A stretch of 64,000 bases of DNA from Labilibaculum euxinicum (GTDB lineage Bacteria > Bacteroidota > Bacteroidia > Bacteroidales > Marinifilaceae): the NCBI RefSeq assembly GCF_009795715.1, contig NZ_WTCR01000005.1, forward strand, positions 310,001-374,000, read 5' to 3'. Below, piece after piece: positions 56,337-64,000 of this stretch. The translations under genes and the position numbers were made by a program. The notes under the pieces are model-generated. The model did no database searches, was not told the DNA's origin, and saw only the letters and a program-made list of their open reading frames with translations. Each line of letters starts with the position of its first letter. Positions within the stretch are counted from its first letter, which is position 1.

Positions 56337-57107
56337 ATGATCGAAAACAAAAAAATATACTTTGCATCGGATGTACATTTAGGAGCTCCTGCTTTACGAA
56401 ACAACCGCGAACGCGAAAAATTGTTTGTACGATGGCTCGATCAGGTGAAGGATGATGCAGAAACCATCTATCTGATGGGAGATATTTTTGATTTTTGGTT
56501 TGAATACAAACGCGCCGTACCAAGAGGCTTTACTCGTGTACTGGGTAAGATTGCTGAAATTACTGATTCTGGAATTCCTGTACATTTCTTTACCGGCAAC
56601 CACGACATTTGGGTGTTCGACTACTTACCAACCGAAATTGGTGTGATTGTACATCGGGATATTGTAAAAACCGAAATTAAAGGGAAAAAATTTTTCCTTG
56701 GACATGGTGATGGATTGGGCCCCTTCGACAAGAATTACAAACTACTGAAGAAGATATTTACCAGTCGTTTTTTGCAATGGTCATTTGCCCGTATTCATCC
56801 CAATTTATCAATTTGGCTGGCCCACAAATGGTCGGGACACAGCAGACTTAGAGATGGAAAAGTAGAGGCTGACAGCTTTAGAGGCATAGATAAAGAATGG
56901 CTTATTCTGTTTGCCAAAGATGAACTGAAAAAGGAACATTTCGACTACTTTGTTTTTGGACACCGGCACTGGCCATCTAATGTCGATTTAAACGGTAAAA
57001 GCCGATACATCAACACCGGCGATTGGGTAACTCATTTTACCTATGCTGTATTCGATGGAGAAAAAATGGAGCTTAAGGAATACGAAAAACCTAAAATTAA
57101 CCACTAA
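56337..57107 (+). CDS. lpxH: UDP-2,3-diacylglucosamine diphosphatase LpxH
   Basis: Cleaves UDP-diacylglucosamine to lipid X in lipid A synthesis. The 256-residue calcineurin-type phosphoesterase has all metal motifs: FASDVHLG (about 9-16), GDIFDFWFEY, TGNHDIW, FLGHGDGLG and GHRHWP near 215. A second group of aromatic residues after the GHGD motif (FLQWSFARIHPNLSIWLA) fits the membrane-facing cap. Length is close to E. coli LpxH (240). The stop codon lies in the base of a terminator hairpin. Confidence 0.9.
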   Translation: MIENKKIYFASDVHLGAPALRNNREREKLFVRWLDQVKDDAETIYLMGDIFDFWFEYKRAVPRGFTRVLGKIAEITDSGIPVHFFTGNHDIWVFDYLPTEIGVIVHRDIVKTEIKGKKFFLGHGDGLGPFDKNYKLLKKIFTSRFLQWSFARIHPNLSIWLAHKWSGHSRLRDGKVEADSFRGIDKEWLILFAKDELKKEHFDYFVFGHRHWPSNVDLNGKSRYINTGDWVTHFTYAVFDGEKMELKEYEKPKINH

Positions 57108-57136
57108 GAACACAACATACTTTGTGGTTAAAAAAA
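57097..57136 (+). terminator. Terminator overlapping the lpxH stop
   Basis: TTAACCACTAAG and CTTTGTGGTTAA match at 11 of 12 positions, followed by a run of A rather than T on the plus strand; T-rich pairing is only partial. The lpxH TAA is inside the left arm. Confidence 0.55.
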
Positions 57137-57209
57137 TAACATTCTCCACTTCACCTCAAAAACCAATGTAAAAACGCAGCATGCGTTACTACAAACAAAA
57201 AACTACAAA

Positions 57210-58583
57210 ATGGAAATAGTATACATCGCAATCGGAATAATCTGTGGATTGGTTATTGCCTGGTTTATCTACCGAAGAAAAGCAGGACAACAGTCGGCTT
57301 TGCATCGGGAAGAATTGCTGAAACAGGAAAACGCTTTTATTAACGAAAAGAGTGAACTTTCGCACAAACTGTCGGTTTTGGAAGAACGGGCCAATAATCT
57401 GCAAAAGGAGAAAACAGAAGTAAACGAAACGATGAATCTGGAGCGTCAGAAGAATGAGAACCTCACCCGCTCTGTTTCCATATCTGCCACCGAGCGAAAA
57501 AATTTAGAAGAACGCTTAACAACTCAAAAACAAGAGTTGGAAGAACTTCAGAAAAAATTCACTACCGAATTTGAAAATATTGCCACAAAAATACTAAAGG
57601 AAAACACCAAAGAATTTACGACCTCAAATCAAAAAAACATGAGTGACATCATGAGTCCGATTAAGGAAAAACTGATGTCGTTTGAGAAAAAAGTAGAGGA
57701 AACTTACGATAGGGAACTGCGTGATAAGATCAGCCTAAAGGAAGAGGTGAAAAAGCTTTACGATCTGAACTCCAAAATTAGTGATGAAGCCAACAACCTG
57801 ACCAAAGCTTTAAAAGGTGATGTAAAAAAACAGGGAAATTGGGGTGAAGTGGTTCTGGAAAGAATTTTAGAGCGGTCGGGCTTAACCAAGGGTCAGGAAT
57901 ACGACCGTGAAGTGGTGATGCAAAACAGTGAAGGACAAACCATTCGTCCGGATGTGATCATTCATTTGCCGGAAGAGAAACACGTAATTGTTGATTCTAA
58001 AGTATCGCTGATTGCTTACGAACGATATGTAAATTCAATTGGTGATGTGGATGCCGAAAAGTTCCAAAAGGAACACATTGTTTCGATGAAAGCTCATGTA
58101 AAAGAATTGGCCGAGAAACATTACCAAAGCTCTGCAGCAATAAACTCGCCTGACTTTGTTCTCATGTTTATGCCGATTGAATCATCCTTTGCCATGGCGG
58201 TGCAATACGATCAGGAGCTTTTTAATTATGCGTGGGACAACAAAATTGTGATTGTGAGTCCATCGACATTGCTCGCAACCTTGCGTACCATTGCTTCGAT
58301 CTGGAAACAGGAACAACAAAACCGAAATGTATTGGAAATTGCCAAGCAGGGAGGTTTGCTTTACGATAAATTTGTTGGTTTTGTTGAGGATATGATCAAT
58401 TTAGGCAGACAAATGGACACTTCAAAAAAGACTTATGCTACGGCAATGAATAAGTTAACCGAAGGAAGTGGTAACCTTATTCGAAGAGCAGAAAACATTC
58501 GTGAGTTAGGCGCCAAAGTAAAAAAGAAACTGCCTCAATCGTTGATCGATAGAATTAACGATACGGAAGCAATTGCAGAATAA
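57210..58583 (+). CDS. rmuC: DNA recombination protein RmuC
   Basis: A 457-residue protein: an N-terminal membrane anchor (about 3-22), a long coiled-coil (about 30-190, rich in Glu, Lys and Leu), then the RmuC nuclease-like domain with GNWGEVVLERILERSGL (about 211-227) and RPDVIIHLPEEKHVIVDSKVSL (PD-(D/E)XK-like residues). RmuC limits inversions at short repeats; the biochemical mechanism is unsettled. Single gene, followed by a perfect palindrome that may end it. Confidence 0.93.
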   Translation: MEIVYIAIGIICGLVIAWFIYRRKAGQQSALHREELLKQENAFINEKSELSHKLSVLEERANNLQKEKTEVNETMNLERQKNENLTRSVSISATERKNLEERLTTQKQELEELQKKFTTEFENIATKILKENTKEFTTSNQKNMSDIMSPIKEKLMSFEKKVEETYDRELRDKISLKEEVKKLYDLNSKISDEANNLTKALKGDVKKQGNWGEVVLERILERSGLTKGQEYDREVVMQNSEGQTIRPDVIIHLPEEKHVIVDSKVSLIAYERYVNSIGDVDAEKFQKEHIVSMKAHVKELAEKHYQSSAAINSPDFVLMFMPIESSFAMAVQYDQELFNYAWDNKIVIVSPSTLLATLRTIASIWKQEQQNRNVLEIAKQGGLLYDKFVGFVEDMINLGRQMDTSKKTYATAMNKLTEGSGNLIRRAENIRELGAKVKKKLPQSLIDRINDTEAIAE

Positions 58584-58605
58584 TTACAAAACATACCTAT
58601 TACTA

Positions 58606-58635
58606 AAAAAGGTCACGACATGTCGTGACCTTTTT
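58606..58635. repeat. Perfect palindrome, GGTCACGA family (copy 1)
   Basis: A 30-base perfect inverted repeat without a loop: AAAAAGGTCACGACA at 58606-58620 and its exact complement at 58621-58635. With A and T ends it can terminate rmuC. It shares its GGTCACGA core with copies at 59719 and 60003 and resembles the copy at 62264. Confidence 0.75.
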
Positions 58636-58894
58636 ATTTGCAGCAAAATATTATTGTTCCAGGAAGGATGTATAGTGTCGCTAAACTTAAAACCGATTAT
58701 CCGAACTGTCAGGGATTATTTCATCTGCTAATTATAATCAATACAAATAGGCAATTGATCCATATTAAAAAAAACTTCTGTTAACATTAATCCAATTTTA
58801 TTTTGATAAATTCGCAAATTATTTTTCATATTGATTTACGTAAAATTTGAATTTTTGCATTAAGAACCAAGATTAAACTCTAAATAAACCAAGT
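58636..58894. other. Spacer before the beta-barrel protein gene
   Basis: AT-rich. AATTTTTG followed by CATT at about 58853 is a one-mismatch -7 element for the gene at 58895. No ORF or repeat beyond the palindrome. Confidence 0.35.
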
Positions 58895-59695
58895 ATGAAT
58901 TATTTAAAATACCTCTTGCCAATTCTTTTGTTTTCTTCTTTTCAGCTTAGTGCTCAGGATAGAATTGTAAAAACCAATCAGGATACCATTGCATGTAAGG
59001 TTAAGGAAGTTTTAACCGATGAGGTAAAATACATCATCCCGGAAACCTCAAATGACATTCTGTTTGGAATCGATAAAAACGACATTCTGAAAATCATATT
59101 GGAAAACGGGAAAGAGCTGAGCTTTTCTCATTCTCTTTACGGAAAGGAAACCTATGAAAATCAGAAAAAACATGCCATTAAAGTAGATTTTCTGGCTCCC
59201 TTAACCGGAAACACAACATTATCATATGAAAAACTAATCCGACCTTCAAGAAGCTGGGAAGTCAGTTTGGGAATAATTGGTTTAGGCGTTGATAATAATG
59301 ACGAGAATCCCCGAGGTGCTTTTGCGAAGTTTGGGATGAAATTTATAAAGAGTCCTGATTTCTATTTAAAAGGCATGCGTTATGCTCACGTTTTAAAAGG
59401 AACTTATGTGAAGCCGGAAATTGCCTTCTCAATGTATTCTTACGATTTCGACTATAATAAAAGAGCGACAAATTGGGCTACTGCCTTAAATATTATTGTG
59501 GGTAAGCAGTATGTATTTAATGATATCTTCCTTTTGGATATGTATTTCGGCTTGGGTTATGGATTTAGTAAAGGTAATGCAGAAGATTATTACTATAACT
59601 CTGATGAATCCTATCATTATGGTTTTTCGGGTGCCAATTCGGATACACCACTGACTATAACGGCTGGTCTTAAAATTGGTATTTTGCTGAAATAA
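58895..59695 (+). CDS. Hypothetical exported beta-barrel-like protein
   Basis: A 266-residue protein with a signal peptide (MNYLKYLLPILLFSSF, cleavage near LSAQD). Residues 20-85 form a small beta domain seen in other Bacteroidota proteins (IVKTNQDTIACKVKEVLTDEVKYI, DKNDILKIILENGKEL). Residues 95-266 look like an outer-membrane eight-strand barrel (alternating aromatics, glycine-rich turns, last strand LTITAGLKIGILLK). Function unknown. It is the last ordinary gene before the accessory right end and is followed by palindrome copy 2. Confidence 0.75.
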   Translation: MNYLKYLLPILLFSSFQLSAQDRIVKTNQDTIACKVKEVLTDEVKYIIPETSNDILFGIDKNDILKIILENGKELSFSHSLYGKETYENQKKHAIKVDFLAPLTGNTTLSYEKLIRPSRSWEVSLGIIGLGVDNNDENPRGAFAKFGMKFIKSPDFYLKGMRYAHVLKGTYVKPEIAFSMYSYDFDYNKRATNWATALNIIVGKQYVFNDIFLLDMYFGLGYGFSKGNAEDYYYNSDESYHYGFSGANSDTPLTITAGLKIGILLK

Positions 59696-59718
59696 AAAAA
59701 CTTCAATAATATTTAGCT

Positions 59719-59747
59719 AGGGTCACGATAGGTCGTGACCCTTTTTT
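59719..59747. repeat. Palindrome, GGTCACGA family (copy 2)
   Basis: AGGGTCACGA (59719-59728) and TCGTGACCCT (59733-59742) around TAGG, followed by TTTTTT. It can act as terminator for the gene ending at 59695 and shares its core with copy 1. Confidence 0.75.
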
Positions 59748-59802
59748 ATTTATGAACAAGAGATAAACATGCTGTACGCCCTATTACTGTTGACCCGTTT
59801 TG

Positions 59803-59934
59803 CAACAGGAAGGTCTTTTTACCAACAGGAAACCTAAACTGAGCAACAGGAGCAACATTTTGCCAACAGGAGACTCAAATCGAGCTACAGGAGTATAAAA
59901 GTATCCATCTGGAATATCAATTTGCCCGACAGGC
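59803..59934. repeat. Phased array of degenerate CAACAGGA repeats, 20-21 bp period
   Basis: Units start at 59803, 59823, 59844, 59864, 59885, 59906 and 59927, so the spacings are 20, 21, 20, 21, 21 and 21 bases. Units 1-4 read CAACAGGA or CAACAGG plus A, unit 5 CTACAGGA, unit 6 CATCTGGA, unit 7 CGACAGGC. The intervening bases are not conserved, apart from frequent GC or CC just before the unit. Conservation decays from left to right. The period is close to two DNA turns, so all units face the same side of the helix. No ORF covers it. Confidence 0.75.
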
Positions 59935-60002
59935 ATTATAAATTCTCGTTTTTACCTACCAAACTATACCAAAGCCAGTTGCAGCACTCCGAATATCAAC
60001 TA

Positions 60003-60012
60003 TCGTGACCCT
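60003..60012. repeat. Half of a GGTCACGA-family palindrome (copy 3)
   Basis: TCGTGACCCT equals the right arm of copy 2, but no left arm precedes it. It lies 5 bases from the stop codon of the PLP-enzyme tail fragment at 60018, in the same position that the complete copy at 62264-62287 holds beside the second fragment. Confidence 0.6.
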
Positions 60013-60017
60013 ATAAA

Positions 60018-60166
60018 TTATATTTTCCCCAAGGCCTCACCTATCTGCCCTTTTAATTTTTCGATATTTTCAATTCCTACCGATAATCGAATAACTCCCG
60101 GCAGTGGATATTTTGCGCCCCAAACAGGCTCTACCGGTAATAAAATGGTATCTGCTTCGCCCAATA
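60018..60166 (-). pseudogene. 3'-end fragment of a Cys/Met-metabolism PLP-enzyme gene (fragment 1)
   Basis: Encodes only the last 48 or so residues of the enzyme whose gene is at 63519 onward: LGEADTILLPVEPVWGAKYP, then a near-identical tail ending GEALGKI. By eye about 15 of 128 aligned bases differ from the real gene. The frame stays open but similarity stops abruptly after CCCAAT near 60166, and there is no start, PLP lysine or upstream domain, so it cannot be a functional enzyme. It ends in GKI where the real gene ends in DNL, sharing the CCCCAAGGCCTC ending with fragment 2. Beside it lies half a palindrome and the CAACAGGA array. Confidence 0.85.
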
Positions 60167-60214
60167 TGGGGTTTGATTGTAATAAACACCCCATAAATAA
60201 AACAATTAAAAGAC

Positions 60215-60304
60215 ATGAAAGGACTATTACATTTTTCTTTAATTTTAATAGCTCTAACATTTCTTGTTTCTTGTGAACGGGAACAAATGCAACAAAATAC
60301 ATAG
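60215..60304 (+). CDS. Possible lipoprotein leader micro-ORF (29 residues), perhaps a remnant
   Basis: ATG 60215 to TAG 60304 encodes a short peptide with a basic start (MKGLLHF), hydrophobic core and a good lipobox LVSC at residues 17-20, then only nine polar residues. It has the composition of a complete lipoprotein signal peptide with almost no mature protein. It may be a truncated lipoprotein gene cut during the rearrangement that left fragment 1, or a genuine small lysis/entericidin-like lipoprotein. It ends 42 bases before the regulator ATG. Confidence 0.4.
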   Translation: MKGLLHFSLILIALTFLVSCEREQMQQNT

Positions 60305-60345
60305 AAAAATAAAACGTGCCACACACAAGCAAAAAACCATCCAAA

Positions 60346-61068
60346 ATGGAAGAAAAACCTAGACTGTCTAGATTAACTGCTATATTAACTCAACTACAAT
60401 CAAAACAGATTTTAACGGCCCGGGAAATTGCTAAAAAGCATAACGTAAGCATCCGGACTATATATCGGGATATTAGAACACTTGAAAATTCTGGAATCCC
60501 AATAATTACAGAAGAAGGAAAAGGCTATTCCCTAATGCAGGGATTCAATCTTCCCCCTGTAATGTTTACAGAAAAAGAAGCAAATGCCTTAATAACAGCT
60601 GAACAACTAATAGTAAGAAACAAAGACAAATCTTTTACCGAGGAATATCAAAATGCTGTTTCTAAAATAAAATCGATTTTACGATACTCTCAAAAAGAAA
60701 AGATTGAGTTTTTATCTGAAAGAATATTTTTCAGGAATAATCCGGAAAGTCAGAAAACAAGTGATTATTTAATGACCATTCAATCAGCAATTACAAATTC
60801 TAATCTTATAAAAATTGAATATAAATCTTTGCAAGGAGAATTTACAAAACGAACAATTGAACCATTTGCAATATACAGCACTCAAGAAAACTGGCTGTTA
60901 ATTGCTATCTGTCAGTTAAGAAATGATTTTAGAGTTTTTCGACTTGACCGTATTCAGAAATTAATTGTTCAAAATGAGCATTTCGAACCTCAAAAAATGA
61001 CACTTCAAGAATATTTTGAAATTTGCAGAGAAAAATACATGACACCCCCTGACACACCTTTGTCATAG
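60346..61068 (+). CDS. YafY-type HTH/WYL-domain transcriptional regulator
   Basis: A 240-residue cytoplasmic regulator. Residues 5-60 form an HTH_11 winged helix (RLTAILTQLQSKQILTAREI, HNVSIRTIYRDIRTLENSG). Residues 130-205 form a WYL domain (LIKIEYKSLQGEFTKRTIEPFAIYSTQENWLLIA, with degenerate W-Y-L), and the last 35 residues a short WCX end (FRLDRIQKLI). GTG 60316 is in frame, but ATG 60346 is preferred. TGACAC repeats at its 3' end may be its own operator. It heads the cargo interval with the GyrI-like and DUF1801 genes and probably controls them. Confidence 0.88.
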   Translation: MEEKPRLSRLTAILTQLQSKQILTAREIAKKHNVSIRTIYRDIRTLENSGIPIITEEGKGYSLMQGFNLPPVMFTEKEANALITAEQLIVRNKDKSFTEEYQNAVSKIKSILRYSQKEKIEFLSERIFFRNNPESQKTSDYLMTIQSAITNSNLIKIEYKSLQGEFTKRTIEPFAIYSTQENWLLIAICQLRNDFRVFRLDRIQKLIVQNEHFEPQKMTLQEYFEICREKYMTPPDTPLS

Positions 61069-61084
61069 CCTGCATTTACTTTTG
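61040..61084 (+). promoter_or_regulatory. Candidate operator and promoter for the GyrI-like/DUF1801 genes
   Basis: TGACAC at 61040-61045 and again at 61050-61055, ten bases apart, then TGTCA at 61061-61065. The second TGACA and the TGTCA make an inverted pair with a 6-base centre. TACTTTTG at 61077-61084 matches the -7 consensus. Lying at the end of the yafY-like gene and before the gyrI-like gene, it is a natural site for the regulator to act. The 61085-61210 leader otherwise shows only a 23-codon ORF at 61114 that I do not call. Confidence 0.45.
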
Positions 61085-61210
61085 TAACATTACAAATCAT
61101 AAAAAATAAGAATATGAAACGTCCATGCCTAAGCAATCTTGACACACAGGGAGATGATTATCTAAGCACGGTAAGTTCCATATGACAATTAAAAAACAAA
61201 TTATAATCAT

Positions 61211-61669
61211 ATGAAAAAGGTAAGTGTTAACGCATTTAAAGTAATCGGTATTTCAGTAAGAACTACAAACGAAAACGAACAAGCGGCAACAGACATTGGA
61301 GCGTTGTGGAACAAGTTTATGACGGAAGGAATTCTTGAGAAAATACCGAACAAAATTGACAATACAATTTATTCAATCTATACAGAATACGAAAGCGACC
61401 ATACAAGACCGTACACAACACTTTTAGGTTGCAAAGTTGAAAATCTAAATAAAATACCCAACGGAATGGTTGGTAAATCATTTGAAGGCGGAAAATATAT
61501 TAAAATATCAGCCAAAGGAGATTTAACAAAAGGATTAATTGTAAATGAATGGACAAAAATATGGGGAATGGATTTAGATCGGGTTTATACTGCAGATTTT
61601 GAAGTGTTTGGAGAAAAATCACAAAACCCAAATGACGCAACAATAGACTTTTTAATTGCTGTAAAATAA
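61211..61669 (+). CDS. GyrI-like small-molecule-binding (AraC effector-binding) domain protein
   Basis: A 152-residue stand-alone effector-binding domain: starts MKKVSVNAFKVIGISVRT, then SIYTEYESDHTRPYTTLLGCKV and the final strand ATIDFLIAVK, the beta-alpha-beta-beta repeat of the SHS2/GyrI fold. The conserved Glu near the C-terminus (DFEVFGE) is present. Relatives bind hydrophobic cations or protect DNA gyrase, or simply sense ligands. It follows the YafY-like regulator, a pairing seen elsewhere, and precedes a DUF1801 gene by 13 bases. Confidence 0.85.
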   Translation: MKKVSVNAFKVIGISVRTTNENEQAATDIGALWNKFMTEGILEKIPNKIDNTIYSIYTEYESDHTRPYTTLLGCKVENLNKIPNGMVGKSFEGGKYIKISAKGDLTKGLIVNEWTKIWGMDLDRVYTADFEVFGEKSQNPNDATIDFLIAVK

Positions 61670-61682
61670 CATCTGTAAAAAT

Positions 61683-62051
61683 ATGATTCGAGAAACTAAT
61701 AATTATTATTTAAACAAGAAAGAACCGAACAAAAGTTGCTTACTTGCTTTGAGAAAGATTATTCTTACACAAGATGATAACATTACAGAGACAACGAAAT
61801 GGGGAATGCCTTGCTTTTGCTACAAGAAAAGAATGTTCTGTTACCTTTGGACTGACAAGAAAACAGATGAGCCTTATATTCTAATGGTTGAAGGAAAACA
61901 CTTGACCCATCCTGAATTAGAAGAAGGAAGTCGTTCCCGAATGAAAATTTTTAGAGTAAACCCGAATGAAGACCTGCCTGTTAATTTTATTGAATTATTA
62001 CTAAATGACGCTTTAGATTTATATAGAAATGGAACTATAAAAACAAAATAA
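61683..62051 (+). CDS. DUF1801 (YdhG-like) family protein
   Basis: A 122-residue protein with the DUF1801 pattern: ACLLALRKIILTQ-like helix (LLALRKIIL), ETTKWGMPCFCYKKRMFCYLW (the TKWGMPCF motif is the family hallmark), and a C-terminal helix around residue 105. The family is related to frataxin-like folds and is of unknown function. Thirteen bases after the GyrI-like gene and likely co-transcribed. The spacer after it (62052-62263) shows nothing recognisable. Confidence 0.85.
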   Translation: MIRETNNYYLNKKEPNKSCLLALRKIILTQDDNITETTKWGMPCFCYKKRMFCYLWTDKKTDEPYILMVEGKHLTHPELEEGSRSRMKIFRVNPNEDLPVNFIELLLNDALDLYRNGTIKTK

Positions 62052-62263
62052 TACCAATTAGGATCTAAATAGTAAAAACTGTAAGTCCTTACTATTTAAT
62101 ACCAAACTAACATCAAAACTGATTTTATAAAATGTTTCATTTCAACTATATCTTCGTTAAAAAAAGATGCAACGTAACCCGGCTATGTTATTCTATTTTA
62201 TTTAAAGATACTTTTGAAATTAAATTGGCATATCACAAACCATTAAAGAGATATCTAAAATAA

Positions 62264-62287
62264 AGGGACACGCCATGGCGTGTCCCT
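62264..62287. repeat. Perfect palindrome, GGGACACGCC type (copy 4)
   Basis: AGGGACACGCCA (62264-62275) followed directly by its exact complement (62276-62287), with no loop and no T-run. It lies 5 bases beyond the stop of fragment 2. It differs from copies 1-3 mainly in TCACGA versus ACACGC, so it is a relative rather than an identical repeat. Confidence 0.7.
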
Positions 62288-62292
62288 ACGGA

Positions 62293-62480
62293 TTACATTT
62301 TCCCCAAGGCCTCACCTATCCAGCCTTTTAATTTTTCGATATTTTCAATTTCCACTGATAATCGAATAACTCCCGGCAAGGGATATTTTGCGCCCTAAAC
62401 AGGCTCTACAGGTAATAAAATGGTATCTACTTCGCCCAATGTTGGTCCCAATGGAATTGTTTCCTCCAGAGACGTTATTA
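62293..62480 (-). pseudogene. 3'-end fragment of a Cys/Met-metabolism PLP-enzyme gene (fragment 2), with in-frame stop
   Basis: About 60 codons of the same 3' end. The Trp of the PVWGAK motif is TAG here, so the frame is broken. Similarity to the real gene continues further upstream than in fragment 1, through the VPTLGE-like stretch, fading near 62475-62480. By eye 11 of the first 128 aligned bases differ from the real gene. It shares with fragment 1 the GKx ending and several substitutions absent from the real gene, so the two fragments look like sisters. It abuts the methyltransferase terminator. Confidence 0.88.
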
Positions 62481-62512
62481 AAAGAGGAATGTCCCCTAAA
62501 AGAACATTCCTC
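62481..62512 (-). terminator. Terminator of the methyltransferase gene
   Basis: On the minus strand GAGGAATGT pairs with ACATTCCTC around an 11-base loop, then TTTT. It lies eight bases past the stop and directly adjoins fragment 2, so the methyltransferase cassette is complete up to the junction. Confidence 0.8.
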
Positions 62513-62520
62513 GCATTCAA

Positions 62521-63294
62521 TTAAATTTTCTTTCCTATATAAAATACATAGCCGTAAAATTCTTTGTGTTTGTAATACAGTTGCATTTCATGCCGTTGAT
62601 TTGCGATGAAACCTTCGGCGGCCTTATTGCCCGCATGCTTTTTCAAGAACTCTTCCTGAACTACGTCCTGTAATTCGTAAAAGTGTTTGATCCAACATTC
62701 ATCAGGTAGAATAAATGAAGCTACTGGAACATATCCCGCTTCCTGCATTTGTTTCACTTTATTTGGAATGGTGTCTATTCCAGGATAAGCATCCTCCCAA
62801 AATTCTTCTATCTCAGCTGGTCGTTCATCTGTAAACCATGATGCTTCCGAAACGGCAACGTACCCTCCTTTTTTTAAAAATTTACGCCATTCCCTAAGTC
62901 CACGTTCAAAACCGATATTATAAATGGCTCCTTCTGACCAAATCAAGTCCATTTCTTCTTGCTGAAAAGGGAGATCATCCATAGAGGCTACAATCCCTTT
63001 TACACGATCCTGAAGATTGAGTTTACTGGCATTCGAATTGAACAGATCAATAAAAGTGGGAAAAAGATCTATTCCTCTTACATTTCCTGATGCATTCTGA
63101 GCCAAAACCATTGTTTGACCACCAGTTCCGCAACCAATATCAACAATATTGGATTCTTCAGTAAGATTGTCAATAAAACCTAGTGCTTTAGTTGTAATTT
63201 CAGGACTACCTGGCCCTTGTCTTTCTAAACCTGAATAATACTCGCAAATTATATTAAGGTCGAACTCGTGAATTGATTTAATTTCGTCACTCAT
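62521..63294 (-). CDS. Class I SAM-dependent methyltransferase
   Basis: A 257-residue cytoplasmic protein from ATG 63294. The SAM-binding motif I is [15 protein letters not shown] (about 53-67), acidic motif [10 protein letters not shown], and motif IV region [15 protein letters not shown]. The sequence resembles small-molecule methyltransferases of the UbiE/Methyltransf_11 group; the substrate is unknown. A frame extension to 63342 is unlikely. It has its own terminator and sits between the real PLP-enzyme gene and fragment 2, so it is part of the inserted material. Confidence 0.88.
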
Positions 63295-63415
63295 GATGTT
63301 TAAATTTATTATGCTGAAAGTAATGACAAGAAGATAATACATCTCTTGCCAAACTTCAAGCTCTTGTTACTATATAGATATGAAAATACCTCAGACATGA
63401 TTATGTCTGAGTAAA

Positions 63416-63456
63416 ATAAAAGGATAACCCCAGGCTGAGAACCTCAGGTTATTTAC
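63416..63456 (-). terminator. Terminator of the PLP-enzyme gene
   Basis: On the minus strand the ATAACC...GGTTAT arms (63424-63429 and 63447-63452), with an inner AGG/CCT, are followed by CCTTTTATTTT. The real gene thus ends in an ordinary terminator, not in the palindrome found beside the two fragments. Confidence 0.75.
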
Positions 63457-63518
63457 CCCACCAAATCCTTCTTACATTTAAACATCAAATAATTTTAGTA
63501 CGATAAAGATAGTGATTC

Positions 63519-64000
63519 TTATAAATTATCTAAAGCTTCACCTATCCAGCCTTTTAACTTTTCGATATTTTCAATTCCTACCGATAATCGAATAACGCCA
63601 GGCAAGGGATATTTTGCCCCCCAAACAGGTTCTACAGGTAATAAAATAGTATCTACTTCACCCAATGTTGGTACCAATGGAATTGTATCTTCCAAAGCTG
63701 CGATAAAGCGATTGCATTTCTCTCTTTTGTCCTCATCGGAAATTCCTTTGATATCGAAAGTTAACATGCCGCCAAAACCTTTATCGCCAAACAAAACCAC
63801 AGCTTCTTTTCGGGTTGGATGAGATTCCAGTCCTGGATACAAAACCTCTCCTATTTTTGGATGATTTTCTAAATATTCAGCCAATTCCATTGCATTTTCG
63901 CAATGCTTCCGGAAACGCAATTCGAAACTTTTTACCTGCGTTCCCAACCGGTAAGCATCATCCGGACTTAAGAAATGACCTGCCCATTTTCGGTATTCAA
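63519..64000 (-). CDS. Cys/Met-metabolism PLP-dependent enzyme (C-terminal part; start beyond window)
   Basis: The frame is open from the right edge (EYRKWAGHFLSPDDAYRLGTQVKSF) to TAA at 63519, giving the last 160 residues of a cystathionine gamma-synthase / methionine gamma-lyase-type enzyme. Recognisable features are the C-terminal domain start SPDDAYRLGTQVKSFELR, the phosphate-binding Arg region GVIRLSVGIENIEKLKGW, and an unusual LPVEPVWGAKYPLPG in place of the THA..P motif of classical members. The PLP lysine is outside the window, so the exact reaction (gamma-synthase, gamma-lyase or O-acylhomoserine sulfhydrylase) cannot be decided. Two fragments of its 3' end lie to the left. Confidence 0.85.
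   Translation of the reverse strand, partial: EYRKWAGHFLSPDDAYRLGTQVKSFELRFRKHCENAMELAEYLENHPKIGEVLYPGLESHPTRKEAVVLFGDKGFGGMLTFDIKGISDEDKREKCNRFIAALEDTIPLVPTLGEVDTILLPVEPVWGAKYPLPGVIRLSVGIENIEKLKGWIGEALDNL

Follow-up and report, generated by a model that had tools for sequence, protein, structure and literature searches.

Displaced 3′ ends of a PLP-enzyme gene and the variable cargo behind it in Labilibaculum euxinicum

The PLP-enzyme gene and its displaced tails

The window (the whole stretch of DNA analysed, 64,000 nt) comes from the 5.06 Mb genome of Labilibaculum euxinicum, and its last 4 kb hold the 3′ part of an intact gene for a pyridoxal phosphate (PLP) enzyme of Cys/Met metabolism, followed by two displaced copies of that gene's own 3′ end. 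The gene is 1173 nt long (390 a.a) and extends past the window to contig position 374691. Given that the enzyme matched 43 NCBIfam families and that none among the 25 shown reached its cut-off, we have left its exact reaction unassigned. The two displaced fragments (the middle and outer tails) lie ~1.0 and ~3.4 kb behind the gene, with 90% and 86% identity to it, and cargo genes separate them, as laid out below ("older" and "newer" cargo being used in the sense of the order argued for in the following section). An Rfam scan of 57000–64000 returned four matches, each under the gathering score of its family.

60000..60013, no strand: half palindrome remnant behind the outer tail, the adjoining spacer deleted
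60018..60165, minus: outer displaced tail, gene positions 1026–1173, ends GKI
60316..62051, plus: older cargo set of three genes, 96% to K2S over 2061 bases
60316–61068, plus: HTH+WYL (YafY-like) regulator (PF08279/PF13280)
61211–61669, plus: Cass2/GyrI-like protein (PF14526/PF06445)
61683–62051, plus: DUF1801 protein (PF08818)
62265..62286, no strand: repetitive extragenic palindrome (REP)-like palindrome with GTAG before it, behind the middle tail
62293..62480, minus: middle displaced tail, gene positions ~970–995 to 1173, internal TAG, ends GKM
62484..62512, minus: hairpin GAGGAATGT...ACATTCCTC closing the methyltransferase unit and abutting the displaced tail (read directly)
62521..63342, minus (the gene's own direction): newer cargo, S-adenosylmethionine methyltransferase (PF08241)
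63519..64000, minus: intact Cys/Met-metabolism PLP-enzyme gene, 3′ part (PF01053, E 2.3e-79)

A 179-nt stretch is found in three copies in register (60018–60196, 62293–62471, and 63519–63697), and a whole-genome search with the middle fragment found three places only, the other two with E values of 3.5e-59 and 3.6e-56. The recurrence of the tail at 62293 and 60018 in the gene's orientation, first noticed in an earlier note on this DNA, is therefore not a matter of chance. Aligned to the 1173-nt gene, the middle fragment covers positions 995–1160 (90%) and the outer fragment positions 1026–1173 (86%), and the middle copy reads TAG where the gene reads TGG, as that note had also reported. Its naming of the cargo (a methyltransferase, a YafY-like regulator, a GyrI-like protein, and DUF1801) agrees with our Pfam scan.

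A third, separate displaced tail was observed in another Labilibaculum, NORP351, where gene positions 910–1173 recur at 86% identity 1.6 kb behind the gene, the cargo between being a mobile-mystery A/B (HTH/Fic) pair. The fragments begin at different points on the gene, at ~900–910 in NORP351, ~970–995 in the middle tail, and 1026 in the outer tail, so that the crossover point varies between them, unlike the fixed crossover of integrase-borne elements; a fixed attachment site was rejected on these differing joint positions. As a background, we took the 250 bases at either end of 475 open reading frames (ORFs) of at least 100 a.a and looked for separate copies of them at E 1e-8 in 576 kb (21 other loci, the window and its continuation, and 200 kb of its own contig). 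Only the PLP gene, in three genomes, proved to have displaced tails, in a sample that is small and not independent of the locus. Apart from these, the scan picked up the outer fragment, which had been called as an ORF in its own right, and a 5′ match of 34 bases at an Ancylomarina locus.

The earlier note had also described an ending common to both fragments, with a palindrome arm, that differs from the real gene. The difference stands, given that the real gene reads DNL and has no palindrome. The ending itself, on an alignment of 15 genes, is the old gene end plus a REP-like palindrome: the intact gene of the relative G008 has the GKM codons and palindrome of the displaced middle copy at its end, and GTAG with the palindrome lies behind the intact gene in G007, G008, G004, G016, and, in a diverged form, K2S, the others being without it. 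The two fragments look alike, in other words, because both are old gene ends. The spacer deleted behind the outer tail is still present in G007, G008, K2S, and L. filiforme. In the window's genome, the palindrome occurs in eight places with at most three mismatches (control, 0). We rejected the palindrome as a cassette end, as it is dispersed in the genome and also lies behind the intact gene of several relatives. The palindrome of the middle tail and those of G007, G008, G004, and G016 are the ones seen to have the GTAG tag. The passages of PMC3733652 dealing with carriers of GTAG-tagged REPs do not list Bacteroidetes. A gene for a 266-a.a membrane protein has two further palindromes, GGTCACGA...TCGTGACC, on either side (58611–58635 and 59721–59745), both related to that of the middle tail.

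The gene's DNA, used as a query, matched 19 of 59 genomes (the window's own included), with no match in the congener G005. Stretches were taken from 14 relatives and 21 loci were added by contig search, of which four distant homologues (L081–L084) were dropped and ten of the remaining 17 appear to come from genomes sampled before, giving a comparison set of 22 loci: the window's own, G004, G007, G014, G028, and L064–L080 (L073 being G069), with K2S and L. filiforme as congeners of the window's genome. Some loci are incomplete, as L076 begins inside the gene, L078 is 3.8 kb long, and the stretches of L065 and L080 reach <2 kb past the gene. In Marinifilum fragile (L079:8001-9162), the PLP gene is split over two reading frames, as if frameshifted.

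The gene order PLP gene, variable stretch, rmuC, lpxH was found in 15 of the 22 loci; the other seven show no rmuC in the stretch, those of L065 and L080 ending soon behind the gene. Different whole-gene sets lie between the same two conserved genes, and by this gene order the locus is a hotspot of variable cargo without a recognised integrase. The cargo in M. breve is a GmrSD/DUF262 protein with a HEPN protein (PADLOC matches include NsnA, E 2.4e-67), that in M. flexuosum is GmrSD+HNH, and that in G008 is a 287-a.a protein without a Pfam match, while A. euxinus has restriction genes (HNH and HpaII) beyond a membrane gene of the 266-a.a type, in a stretch with no rmuC; further sets occur in other relatives. 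In G007, two shorter frames stand in place of the 287-a.a protein of G008, and a gap of 199 bases interrupts an otherwise nearly identical stretch (L055/L056). Several relatives carry cargo without a displaced tail. No integrase was recognised among the four cargo proteins here and those cargo proteins of relatives that were scanned (not every relative protein), in keeping with the earlier note, which had seen none. The G007 stretch includes a transposase, IS1182-like as named by eye.

Order of arrival, tail alleles, and the route of insertion

The arrangement in the congener K2S bears on the order of events. K2S has a single intact gene whose tail runs straight into the DUF1801/GyrI/YafY cargo, with no methyltransferase, and the ~2384 bases of its gene tail and older cargo match the middle fragment and older cargo of the window at 94.8%. 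Its intact gene thus occupies the position of the middle fragment here, an intermediate state with the older cargo beside a whole gene. Since the K2S tail joins the older cargo directly, the methyltransferase unit arrived later, in the window's lineage. At the cargo joint where the outer fragment lies here, K2S also retains 45 bases of a displaced tail, and over 43 positions this stub is 90.7% identical to G008 and the displaced copies versus 83.7% to K2S's own tail. Given this shared stub, the joint between cargo and outer tail was probably made once, in a single event common to K2S and the window's genome, with the methyltransferase following later. The older cargo is 94–100% identical per window between this genome and K2S, and identity drops at the tail copies on both sides. 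DNA homologous to the methyltransferase unit was found in 36 of 144 genomes (own included), the best other match being 73% and several spanning nearly the whole unit. Sites empty of cargo are represented by G004 and N1E240, in which rmuC ends within ~125 bases of the gene.

The differences among alleles lie mainly in the tail. Over positions 1000–1144, the real tail is 98.6% identical to G007 and 92.4% to G008, the outer copy is 95.1% identical to G008, and the middle copy is about equally close to G008 (91.0%) and the real tail (90.3%). Over positions 1026–1173, the middle copy is 93.2% identical to the G008 tail versus 87.2% to the real tail, while over the last 29 bases it matches G008 in full and the real tail at 72%; the tail copies are 86–92% alike among themselves. 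The displaced copies, on these identities, favour a G008 type as the older tail allele. In a tree of tails (19 of the 22 genes, leaving out M. fragile, N1Y90, and SI037, plus the three displaced copies), the window's real tail pairs with G007 (97.3/99), whereas in a tree of gene bodies (18 genes, with G001 left out as well) G007 and G008 are sisters (99.4/100). G007 and G008, compared in 60-base windows, show no difference along most of the gene except at 421–540 (93–96%), and from position 1021 on fall to 93, 86, and 81% (differences of 7–19%). Behind the gene, they return to 95% and then, from ~100 bases, to 96–100%, interrupted by the 199-base gap and with a last window of 91%. As a separate observation, the same pair (L055:1600-4580, L056:2450-5490) shows a sharp recombination mosaic within and before the upstream neighbour of the PLP gene, with long identical tracts against windows of 45–97%, the lowest being partly misalignment.

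A further border was noted in G028, whose gene (L063:3647-4810) shares 100% identity with the Ancylomarina DW003 gene (L073:8001-9164) as far as ~position 1049, dropping to 95% in the window after it. Behind the G028 gene, the initial 3.5 kb are 96–100% identical to the congener MAG11 (G017; L066) and unlike DW003; before the gene, ~850 bases are 95–100% like MAG11, and further up identity to DW003 is again 100%. Either DNA was exchanged between the genera very recently, one of the borders falling in the tail, or the assembly is faulty here. The flanking gene, taken together, exhibits mosaic identity and tree conflict, with apparent recombination borders in the tails of relatives.

We favour, with a probability of roughly 60%, homology-facilitated illegitimate recombination at a hotspot bordering the 3′ end of the conserved PLP gene, acting twice here. 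Incoming DNA would consist of a related gene end plus cargo, with one end entering by homologous recombination inside the PLP gene and the other joined illegitimately within the last 150–260 bases of the resident gene. Each event would give the gene a new tail and leave the truncated old one behind the new cargo: the first would have inserted the regulator/GyrI/DUF1801 set and left the outer fragment, and the second the methyltransferase unit, leaving the middle fragment. The varied joints, the replaced tail, and the nested order fit the route proposed for the arrays of the type VI secretion system (T6SS) in Vibrio. The comparisons show the order of the methyltransferase, the single gene copy in the stretches, the variable fragment starts, and the tail-limited allele differences; we infer the recombination route and the arrival of the new tail with the cargo. 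The earlier note's suggestion of successive insertions, each pushing the old tail outward, gains from both the pre-methyltransferase state in K2S and the different tail allele of the real gene, which lacks the palindrome. A ComEC homologue is encoded in the genome; however, a control search found one in 10 of 14 named genomes, so this says little.

Several points weigh against this route. As G007 has the same tail allele as the real tail and no methyltransferase, the new tail and the methyltransferase may have arrived separately, and no donor joining the methyltransferase to the real tail allele was found, the best homologues being ~73%. Other tracts are equally similar between this genome and K2S (95–99%), including downstream ones. 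The displaced copies fall near G008 in the tail tree with support of 83/76 or less, and Marinifilum tails lie inside the group. The NORP351 case sits at a contig end in a genome that is 63% complete, and tracts resembling DW003 and MAG11 by turns lie ahead of the G028 gene, where mis-assembly is possible.

A bolder extension, which we hold as speculative and rather unlikely, is that the PLP gene tail may act as an integrase-free docking port, with each tail copy serving as homology for the next exchange, so that cargo (including defence-like genes in relatives) would accumulate and pass between species in tail-bounded cassettes, with housekeeping recombination being sufficient for this. The tract shared with K2S ends at the tails, but tracts of 95–99% identity also occur downstream, hence our reserve; the G028 border does not change these odds.

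Among the rival explanations, a long target duplication is the likeliest, though we judge it improbable. Here, cargo would have been joined between broken sister copies, duplicating 150–260 bases, with the outer copy decaying afterwards. No donor tail would be necessary, variable fragment starts would be expected, and the in-frame stop of the middle copy is consistent with it. However, over 1026–1173 the middle copy is nearer to G008 than to the real tail, down to the last 29 bases, and the real gene end is without the palindrome, which would need an added, later tail exchange; over 1000–1144 alone, the middle copy is about as close to G008 as to the real tail.

More doubtful still is that tail-bounded cassettes excise and re-enter by RecA exchange, the gene end serving as an attachment site without an integrase. 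The cargo does lie between direct repeats of 150–190 bases, the tracts shared with K2S stop at the tails, G007 and G008 differ mainly at the tail, and the G028 border falls there too; yet the fragment starts vary, the tail copies are only 86–92% alike, and several relatives carry cargo without a displaced tail.

The alternative raised in the earlier note, decay of two or three full-length tandem paralogues with cargo taking the place of their 5′ parts, is a poor candidate overall. The fragments share the gene's orientation, as it would predict, but full-length tandem copies were sought in relatives and a second copy was found in none of the 22 loci within the stretches examined (L065, L076, L078, and L080 being short or cut), and the intact K2S gene sits at the position of the middle fragment; for that fragment, we reject paralogue decay on these two grounds. 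Least probable is a site-specific recombinase encoded elsewhere in the genome. It could explain why all three events used one gene end but not readily why the joints fall at different gene positions, and the scan of proteins, which was no genome-wide census of recombinases, showed no integrase.

A dispersed element at start codons

Within the older cargo lies one copy of a dispersed element that is not part of the tail story and is possibly of more interest than the displaced tails.

61114..61210, plus: dispersed ~96-bp start-codon element, directly before the start codon of the GyrI-like gene, begins ATGAAACGTCCATG

The 14-mer ATGAAACGTCCATG occurs 30 times in this genome, 88 times in L. filiforme, 78 in G005, and 50 in K2S (reversed control, 0 in each) and is present in 17 of 59 genomes; further copies without the exact 14-mer exist. 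The far end reads ATGAA in 29 of the 30 copies here (copies in L155–L181; empty sites in L197 and L203–L205). At 21 of 30 copies, this ATGAA is the start of an ORF of 60 a.a or more (some ORFs exceed the stretch, and the count has no shuffled control), and at three of the 30 the next tandem copy begins there. Before an rpiB-like gene (named by eye), the element is present in this genome, G005, and G007, and the site is cleanly empty in K2S and also empty in G003 and G004. A nucleotidyltransferase-like gene has a filled site in this genome, K2S, and one G004 locus, and an empty one in G005, G007, G008, and a second G004 locus, the border being less exact and several reading ATGCA, not ATGAA.

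The terminal hairpin of the element holds the start codon, and its arms co-vary. In the 58 copies with both arms recognised (75 scanned), the pairs were CATATG/CATATG (40), CATCTG/CAGATG (9), CATGTG/CACATG (1), a G-T variant (1), and one broken pair (7). Single-sequence folding was not uniformly better than that of shuffles (z of −0.9, −2.7, and −2.8 as RNA; −1.4 to 0.4 as DNA). Read as peptide, 18 of the 30 copies give MKRP(C/W) running into varied stretches, six give MKRPCIKLSTH, and six stop after MKRP, and it is doubtful on these readings that a shared peptide is encoded. Six Y1-transposase matches were found, and a search for the element ends at those loci gave short matches only (best 23 bases, 91%, E 1e-4), with no clear partner. 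The element resembles a non-autonomous transposon with ATGAA as its landing site and a leader of its own. A literature search aimed at it brought up only a paper on REP repeats.

A second dispersed repeat of ~140 bp (window ~62093–62232) lies at the end of the older cargo, with piecewise matches of 75–95% in G001, G006, G016, G024, G069, and G073; in the window's genome, it also adjoins another copy of the start-codon element (L162).

Comparison with known systems

Some integrative elements carry a replacement 3′ end for the protein gene into which they integrate, as e14 does at icd. The likeness lies in a new tail that keeps the gene whole and an old tail that is displaced, whereas here we found neither an integrase nor a fixed crossover point. 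The parallel with integrative elements having a defined attachment site, drawn in the earlier note, thus fails on the variable starts, the lack of an integrase among the proteins scanned, and the occurrence of cargo without displaced tails.

Hotspots without mobile elements, with recombination in the flanking core genes, have been described (PMC5635113), and many hotspots of gene turnover lack a recognisable mobile element (PMC5635113); for minimal mobile elements, the model outlined in PMC3082526 is recombination in the flanks on both sides. The present locus is alike in that the PLP gene and rmuC enclose gene sets that differ between species, with no recognised integrase and with signs of recombination in a flanking gene. 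It differs in that two-flank recombination, as outlined there for minimal mobile elements, would leave no displaced tails. Such tails are footprints of cargo entry, recording its order, the position of the joint, and the replacement of the tail, and could be sought genome-wide to count such events.

Closest is the displacement of T6SS effectors in Vibrio cholerae, with its arrays of orphan immunity genes, for which homology-facilitated illegitimate recombination has been proposed (PMC5361080, in its account of these arrays, where orphan 3′ regions of Rhs loci are mentioned alongside). In that account, as here, a new module arrives at a conserved anchor, the old 3′ part is shifted outward, and repeats of the process build an array. 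The gene end there is the changing toxin part, whereas here it is the tail of a conserved enzyme next to unrelated cargo. The displaced tails found here indicate that the displacement process proposed for toxin loci may also act at a plain metabolic gene.

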